DNA of 64,000 nt. Origin: Desulfosporosinus nitroreducens (GTDB lineage Bacteria > Bacillota > Desulfitobacteriia > Desulfitobacteriales > Desulfitobacteriaceae). The stretch covers positions 1 to 64,000 of the forward strand of contig NZ_JAMHFY010000022.1 of assembly GCF_023897015.1 (NCBI RefSeq), read 5' to 3'. The notes below the pieces were generated by a model that ran no database searches, was not told the DNA's origin, and saw nothing but the letters and a program-made list of their open reading frames with translations. Below are positions 10,424 through 10,949 of the stretch, piece after piece (the stretch's first letter is position 1; the number at the start of each line of letters is the position of its first letter). A program made the position numbers and the translations under genes.

Positions 10424-10468
10424 AAAGACCCCACAATTCCCCAAAACGGAGGGGAATTGTGGGGTTTA
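10424..10468. terminator. bidirectional terminator
   Basis: A 15-bp perfect stem (10428-10442 with 10451-10465, 8-base loop) with flanking A and T runs, immediately after the stop of the Sec-ArsC gene; it ends that minus-strand transcript. Confidence 0.88.
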
Positions 10469-10804
10469 ACTATACTTCTCCTCTGCCTTAAAACCTATAA
10501 CCAGTTCGTTGTTCCGTACAACTAGGGGGCGGATAATAGCCTTTGGATTTACAGCCAGAAAATTGGCTACAGCCAATTCGTTAGAGTCCTCAAGTTCTTT
10601 CCCAAGTTCCTTGTAGGTTTTGCTTCTCTTATTCAGCAAACTCTGAACGAGAACACCCCCAAGTTTAGCAAGGTCATTCAGTTCTTCGACGGAGAGAGGG
10701 TTTTTTACAATATTGCGGTATTCAAACTTAACATTCTGTTGCAGAAGACCCGCTTCTGCTTTACGGCAAGTCGTTCACTGGGGAAAGCAATAAAATGTCA
10801 GCAT
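10466..10804 (-). CDS. ArsC/Spx-family protein with predicted selenocysteine
   Basis: Found by translating through a TGA. ATG at 10804 has AGGAGG nine bases upstream; the frame reads MLTFYCFPQ-TGA-TTCRKAEAG and continues to TAA at 10466, 112 residues in all with no other stop. It aligns with the ArsC-like family (for example Bacillus YusI, YPKCGTCRKA): the TGA sits exactly on the catalytic cysteine, giving a U-x-x-C pair, and the family arginine segment IIRPLVV is kept near residue 90. A hairpin (stem GCAGAAG/CTTCTGC, 5-base loop CGGGT) begins right after the TGA at a distance of 22 bases to the loop, within the usual bacterial SECIS range and with G in the loop. TATAAT lies at 10834-10829. 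It probably acts as a thiol/selenol oxidoreductase; the substrate is unknown. Confidence 0.85.
10741..10759 (-). promoter_or_regulatory. predicted bacterial SECIS hairpin
   Basis: Perfect 7-bp stem GCAGAAG/CTTCTGC with loop CGGGT inside the coding region, 22 bases after the in-frame TGA at 10777-10775. Known bacterial SECIS elements sit 16-37 bases from UGA to apical loop and carry G among the first two loop bases; both hold here. It would recruit SelB with Sec-tRNA. Confidence 0.7.
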
Positions 10805-10949
10805 TTTCTTTTTCCTCCTATGTCTAGGATTATATACCGTCTCTCCAAGAACTTGGATCTTATATTAAGAAGTAGGATGTACAATCAAAATATTTTTTAC
10901 AACCCAGTTTGGCAAGAGGCGAAAGGGGTGCATCGCATCTTGTTTATGA

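Follow-up and report, generated by a model that had tools for sequence, protein, structure and literature searches.

On the minus strand of the window (the whole stretch of 64,000 nucleotides analysed here), direct reading yields a frame from 10804 to 10466 that starts with ATG (10804–10802), ends with TAA (10468–10466) and comprises 113 codons including the stop. The encoded protein has 112 amino acids, starts with MLTFYCFPQ-U-TTCRKAEAGLLQQ... and contains a single in-frame TGA, around which the sequence reads F-P-Q-U-T-T-C-R-K-A. An earlier note on this DNA had described a 113-codon frame with a good ribosome site and one TGA. All of this was confirmed (GGAGG, TGA at codon 10), as was the position of the frame; the strand, which had not been given, is the minus strand. 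If the plus strand of 10466–10804 is taken as the coding strand, the translation in the same frame is unrelated. The features of the locus are:

10466..10804, minus strand: gene of a predicted selenoprotein, Spx/ArsC-like, 112 amino acids, selenocysteine (Sec) at residue 10 (frame, family models, homologues, dN/dS)
10775..10777, minus strand: in-frame TGA (UGA), codon 10, inferred Sec, aligned with Cys10 of Spx (homologue alignment)
10741..10759, minus strand: SECIS-like hairpin GCAGAAG-CGGGT-CTTCTGC (pairing and conservation)
10814..10818, minus strand: ribosome-binding site GGAGG, 9 nt before the ATG (direct reading)
10428..10465, minus strand: intrinsic terminator-like stem, 15 pairs, directly after the stop codon (sequence)
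10766..10768, minus strand: codon of Cys13, the presumed resolving cysteine of U-x-T-C (motif in homologues)
10787..10789, minus strand: codon of Cys6, third invariant cysteine-type residue of the clade (homologue alignment)

Since the terminator-like stem stands right behind the stop codon, the gene appears to close its own transcription unit. The window neighbours with a family match comprise an AOR-like oxidoreductase, an iron alcohol dehydrogenase, a TetR regulator, TIGR00725, YccF and a CODH/ACS-gamma-like protein. No family match was obtained for the gene next upstream; from its appearance we take it to be nitroreductase-like.

Family and fold

With cysteine in place of U, the protein reaches 78.8 bits with the Spx/MgsR model TIGR01617 (cut-off 75.05) and 58.7 bits with the Pfam ArsC model (cut-off 24); a six-frame search of the genome gave 72.4 bits for TIGR01617, just under the cut-off. 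The cut-offs of the Spx model NF002459 (73.6 bits vs. 123), the arsC model TIGR00014 (42.5 bits vs. 106) and the ArsC_rel_Se_1 model NF041106 (24.4 bits vs. 85) were not reached. The genome holds one other TIGR01617 match, a paralogue without TGA. For structure prediction and family scan an alignment of 23 clade members (A3) was used; 22 of the 23 match NF041106 weakly, with a best E-value of 7.2e-11. The AlphaFold model computed from these sequences has a mean pLDDT of 89.5 and a pTM of 0.80, and the first six Foldseek rows are ArsC-like proteins and Spx (TM 0.84–0.88). Searching the PDB returned Spx at 1.7e-15 and also ArsC-like proteins; the nearest structures include complexes of Spx with alphaCTD.

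In a tree of 68 rows, computed without the near-duplicates L017, L022, L036 and L037, the Sec rows split from the cysteine-containing Spx and YffB-like rows with a support of 93/88, which is below the 95/80 mark of the tree tool; a long-branched paralogue stands apart. The earlier note had proposed an ArsC/Spx-family selenoprotein. The family assignment holds, and its scope has become a clade instead of one odd gene, nearer to Spx than to arsenate reductase.

Conservation and distribution of the in-frame TGA

The collected clade comprises 56 distinct genes in 55 genomes; 14 of these genes belong to the genus and 42 to other members of the phylum. They are represented by 57 rows, including L036, which is identical to L023; the frameshifted genes L025 and L026 and the contig-end fragment L042 were left out, and the Sec gene L117 of another ArsC branch was handled apart. 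Codon 10 is TGA in 56/56 distinct genes, with cysteine in none and TAA or TAG in none. It is aligned with Cys10 of Spx and followed by Cys13, in line with the earlier claim that the TGA takes the place of the catalytic cysteine in a U-x-x-C pair. The signature of the clade is C-x3-U-x-T-C, residues 6, 12 and 13 being C, T and C in 57/57 rows. Its invariants are C6, U10, T12, C13, K15 and N58, and R92 is found in 56/57 rows.

Among 29 genomes of the genus, 18 match P0001, two of which (G009 and G010) match a paralogue type only. The remaining 16 carry the gene, which is apparently intact in 13 (14 copies, two of them in G020), frameshifted in two (G003 and G011) and a contig-end fragment in one (G026). 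In 13 of the 29 genus genomes the gene was not detected. Beyond the genus, one genome (G049) came from searches of the order and the class around the window, and 16 more from a phylum sample of 398 genomes. The class of G140 carries the gene in 29 of 63 genomes, four of which had been counted before; the class search centred on G131 comprised three genomes in total. The matches without stop, 22 from the phylum sample and 5 from the class of G140, are Spx, MgsR-like or YffB-like by sequence (our own labels), and no cysteine member of the clade is among them. In plasmid and phage collections all matching records (107 and 21) are less than 60% identical, those shown ranging from 31 to 39%.

Downstream of the TGA, 55 of the 56 genes have no further stop before residue 100; the exception is L167, from a draft genome, which loses the frame after about residue 80. 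Comparison of the window gene with 11 genus rows gave dN/dS values of 0.079–0.257 after the TGA, single values being rough as several dS exceed 1. Purifying selection acts on the region downstream of the TGA. That a nonsense mutation had broken a Spx/ArsC gene might be supposed from the frameshifted copies of two genus species (L025, L026) and from the lost frame of L167. However, the recurrence of TGA at one codon in all 56 distinct genes, never as TAA, TAG or a cysteine codon, together with the open frame and the dN/dS values behind it, makes a pseudogene a practically negligible explanation. Conservation of the TGA in relatives, named in the earlier note as a check, is borne out; the decayed downstream frame that it had named as contrary evidence was looked for, and the relatives gave low dN/dS instead, with the frameshifts of L025, L026 and L167 told apart.

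The frameshifts of L025 (Desulfosporosinus sp. SRJS8) and L026 (D. fructosivorans) lie after the Sec codon. The gene seems to be in the course of being lost in some species of the genus. In UBA8487, two near-identical copies (L021 and L022) are separated by about 4.7 kb, and a similar gene of the MCGRYSF type (HMCES-like by eye) follows each of them.

The downstream hairpin and the selenocysteine machinery

The perfect stem of 7 bp starts 15 nt past the UGA, spans +18 to +36 counted from the U of the UGA, and encloses a loop with G that starts 22 nt past the UGA. The earlier note had the stem and the G in the loop right; its 22 bases, given there as the distance from hairpin start to loop, are the distance from UGA to loop. 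Taken on its own the window hairpin stands out only mildly: all seven positions also pair in 147 of 5000 synonymous-codon shuffles, and an equally good or better fold arises in 51 of 200 dinucleotide shuffles. The strength of the hairpin case comes from its conservation in relatives, not from the window hairpin by itself.

The Desulfosporosinus stem GCAGAAG/CTTCTGC is replaced by GCGAAAG/CTTTCGC in several distant members at the same register, so that both sides of the stem have changed between lineages (A-U to G-C and G-C to A-U); the hairpin thus recurs in relatives, as the earlier note had suggested checking. In this fixed register the mean number of pairs is 6.92 of 7 in 13 genus rows and 5.53 in 17 distant rows vs. 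2.22 in nine cysteine Spx rows; synonymous-codon shuffles reached these means in 0/2000, 0/2000 and 1135/2000 cases, respectively. In the first register, the 25 rows added later form a mean of 3.68 of the 7 pairs, because many of them use a second register (AGCCAG-GGC-CTGGCT type). The first register is found in 28 of 51 distinct rows and the second in 17, so that 45 fit either and 6 neither, while 3 of 9 cysteine Spx rows also pass this loose either-register test. Column shuffles reached the observed covariation score or the fraction paired in 0 of 300 cases. A slide of the register by -2 gives a similar covariation score (0.232 against 0.223), hence only the fraction paired (0.695 vs. at most 0.465) separates the register.

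The median energy of the best hairpin is -6.8 in the 57 Sec rows, -1.5 in the nine cysteine Spx rows and -6.1 in five YffB-like rows including the Sec gene L117; values of -5 or below occur in 42/57, 1/9 and 3/5 rows, respectively. This measure separates the Sec rows from cysteine Spx, but not from the small YffB-like set. A free-folding codon-shuffle test on 53 rows gave a weak signal (mean z -0.73, 45 rows below zero, 6 below 0.05), vs. mean z values of -0.13 for cysteine Spx and -0.38 for a control stretch of the Sec rows. Within the genus, synonymous-codon identity is 0.83 in codons 11–22, 0.72 in codons 2–9 and 0.61 from codon 26 onwards (codons 11–22 vs. codon 26 on, p 0.002). Its maximum over 12-codon stretches (0.89) lies at codons 14–25, which cover the hairpin. 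The Rfam model SECIS_1 has no match in the own genome or in 14 control genomes and is hence uninformative. A SECIS-like hairpin shortly downstream of the UGA is present in the clade, yet some members have it at a shifted position or in a weak form.

The window belongs to a 5.46 Mb assembly (completeness 99.99%, contamination 4.6%) of a sulfate-reducing Desulfosporosinus, family Desulfitobacteriaceae. Among named relatives, Desulfosporosinus lacus DSM 15449 comes closest, its protein being 97% identical. The genes selA, selB and selC, the search for which had been suggested with the original observation, are present: two selB genes above the curated cut-off and two tRNA-Sec genes with anticodon UCA are located on the same two contigs (C95 and C66), and the C95 cluster contains selA (TIGR00474, 596 bits vs. 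a cut-off of 267.9). Genes of glycine/sarcosine/betaine reductase lie in the latter cluster too, among them grdA, a known selenoprotein gene whose in-frame TGA is the U of CFVUTAA. Four stretches at the two sel clusters were scanned for a selD motif, with no match.

At 88000–106000 of C95 (L120), a second selenocysteine kit consists of tRNA-Sec, selB, thioredoxin reductase, a thioredoxin-like gene (by eye) and selA; it is embedded in the glycine/sarcosine/betaine reductase cluster with grdA. Its tRNA-Sec is strongly unlike the C66 copy, and a similar tRNA occurs in G010 and G020 among the matches listed for the 29 genus genomes. Two tRNA-Sec genes were previously reported for Desulfosporosinus orientis, according to the accessible part of the source (PMC5330540).

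With 100 candidates scored per genome, tRNA-Sec of at least 64 bits is among the matches listed in 25 of 29 genus genomes; the tally of 28/29 above the cut-off includes matches of about 47–49 bits, which are serine tRNAs in the window genome. G005, G019, G025 and G026 are without a strong tRNA-Sec among the matches listed at this number of candidates. Two of them, G005 and G025, carry an intact TGA gene, and the absence of a tRNA-Sec of at least 64 bits from their listed matches may be explained by draft assemblies and limited candidate scoring.

Within the phylum sample, selB is above the cut-off in 17/17 carriers of the clade gene (own genome included) vs. 263/398 genomes overall; the probability of finding it by chance in all 16 foreign carriers is 0.0011, related genomes not being independent. 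It was found by eye in 4 of 11 genomes with no-stop matches only (Fisher p 0.0003 vs. 17/17, with the same dependence among relatives). G307, which has the separate Sec gene L117, is selB-positive as well. This survey is that of the 398 genomes, with G049, the other genomes of the G140 class and most genus genomes outside it.

The TGA might also be read otherwise, as cysteine by a special tRNA or as tryptophan by leaky readthrough. However, both UCA-anticodon tRNAs that were found are tRNA-Sec by ARAGORN (run on part of the genome) and Rfam, and the hairpin as well as the presence of selB in all carriers of the phylum sample speak against such decoding, which we regard as very improbable.

Predicted function and known relatives

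Based on this dataset, we consider it highly likely that the gene encodes a selenoprotein of the Spx/ArsC type with thioredoxin (Trx) fold and Sec at UGA10, which acts as a dispensable stand-alone redox enzyme in anaerobes, is not a dedicated arsenate reductase and is probably no regulator of RNA polymerase. UGA codon 10 would be decoded by SelB and tRNA-Sec, aided by the downstream hairpin. As the C-x3-U-x-T-C motif and the fold suggest, the selenol of Sec10 would act as the nucleophile towards a substrate in oxidised form, such as a disulfide. Cys13 would then resolve the bond by forming an intramolecular Se-S, and regeneration may involve Cys6 or thioredoxin.

A different possibility is a Sec analogue of Spx, in which selenium would serve as the redox switch and the protein would control stress genes by binding to RNA polymerase. 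The best curated family of the window protein is Spx/MgsR, Spx-alphaCTD complexes are among the nearest solved structures, Arg92 is kept in 56/57 rows, and position 60 carries Lys or Arg in 57/57. However, Gly52 is found in 9/9 cysteine Spx rows vs. 4/57 Sec rows, Arg91 of Spx is mostly replaced in the Sec rows, the C-terminal part of Spx is missing (131 vs. 112 amino acids), and the score with NF002459 is far below its cut-off. Substitution G52R of Spx breaks the contact with alpha-CTD. This mutant is listed among activation-defective ones in PMC2801614. The loss of Gly52 and the missing C-terminal extension speak against RNA-polymerase binding; binding of the Spx type by the clade protein appears unlikely from these residues, and we assign the Sec analogue of Spx a low probability. 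An Spx-like expression switch that senses via Se-S formation of Sec10 with Cys13 (or Cys6) is, to our judgement, quite improbable. If it existed, strict anaerobes might respond with it at far lower potentials than with cysteine Spx, and the switch would work only with selenium available.

Reduction of arsenate or a similar oxyanion, with Sec as the nucleophile, has also been considered. The window protein has an ArsC fold, and Arg92 corresponds to an arginine of ArsC. A review (PMC13188914) includes arsenate reductases that contain Sec (UxxS). However, the TIGR00014 score is less than half of its cut-off, no ars-operon family is among the window neighbours that gave a family, and inspection of protein beginnings by eye revealed no ars cluster in the 30 contexts listed. 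An arsenate reductase is therefore an unlikely reading.

Since the neighbourhoods change and the residues are unlike those of Spx, a general selenol/thiol oxidoreductase is held most likely, and this is probably the role of the clade as predicted from its sequences. Clustering of neighbours by blastp, a crude approach, found no family in more than four lineages and named no partner or substrate. By eye, the neighbours include ABC transporters, GntR-type regulators and HMCES-like, ZIP-type, GDPD-like and AmmeMemoRadiSam-like genes. In four related genomes (L099, L103, L106 and L107) the gene follows two AmmeMemoRadiSam-pair-like genes (by eye).

With Spx/MgsR (TIGR01617, NF002459) the clade shares the Trx-like ArsC fold, the redox pair at positions 10 and 13, Arg92 and Pro93, and a gap-free alignment up to residue 109. 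It differs by Sec in place of Cys10, by the loss, in most rows, of Gly52 and Arg91 and by lacking the C-terminal extension; moreover, Cys6 and Asn58 are each found in 57/57 clade rows vs. 0/9 in Spx. Cys6 was rejected as a mark of the Sec clade alone, as it also occurs in the cysteine YffB-like genes L116 and L168–L172. This branch shares C-x3-C-x-T/S-C and an Asn at the place of Asn58, but has Cys for Sec and an insert in the second half, and it lies on the Spx side of the 93/88 split (L116 and L168 being the ones included in the tree). To judge from the motif, the clade seems to have the C-x3-C-x-T/S-C arrangement of this neighbouring branch in a form with selenium.

Selenoproteins of the ArsC family as such are known. 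The part of the review PMC13188914 at hand lists an 'Arsenate reductase' with UxxS (TIGR00014) and an 'Arsenate reductase-like protein' with UxxC (NF041106), and the same two are listed in the accessible part of PMC9312934. ArsC_rel_Se_1 (NF041106) has in common with the clade the ArsC superfamily, UxxC and one Sec; it is set apart by the model score alone, not by a tree, the window protein being far below the cut-off. The Sec arsenate reductase of TIGR00014 also is an ArsC-superfamily protein with Sec, whereas the clade has UxxC instead of UxxS and does not reach the model. ArsC-like predicted selenoproteins have been described for Desulfotalea psychrophila and Desulfuromonas acetoxidans (PMC1794560, partial text); these are likewise ArsC homologues of anaerobes, compared here by description only. 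The UXX-star glutaredoxin-like proteins (NF041114, NF041211, NF041212) share the Trx fold and Sec at the redox motif, but match over about the first 47 residues only, with 17.9–29.5 bits vs. cut-offs of 66–100.

The word Spx is absent from the main text of PMC13188914, and no Spx-like entry was found in its table; PMC12013277 does not mention ArsC or Spx. A literature search for an Spx-like selenoprotein found none, although Haft and co-workers may have described one earlier. The clade may be regarded as an ArsC-superfamily selenoprotein variant that was not found in the inventory consulted. As the NCBIfam seleno models tried do not flag the gene, annotation likely misses it or truncates it at residue 9.

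The finding adds a coherent clade to the prokaryotic selenoproteome, which is Sec-only in all distinct genes collected. Many Trx-fold selenoproteins have cysteine counterparts; a Sec-only clade is thus a clean case for what selenium gives beyond sulfur.

Outside the clade, L117 of G307 is a gene of the ArsC/YffB branch that has an in-frame TGA but carries Ala where the resolving cysteine would stand (PSUTSARK). It has a hairpin of its own (AAGCCAA-GGC-TTGGCTT) in a selB-positive genome, and is apparently a separate gain of Sec.
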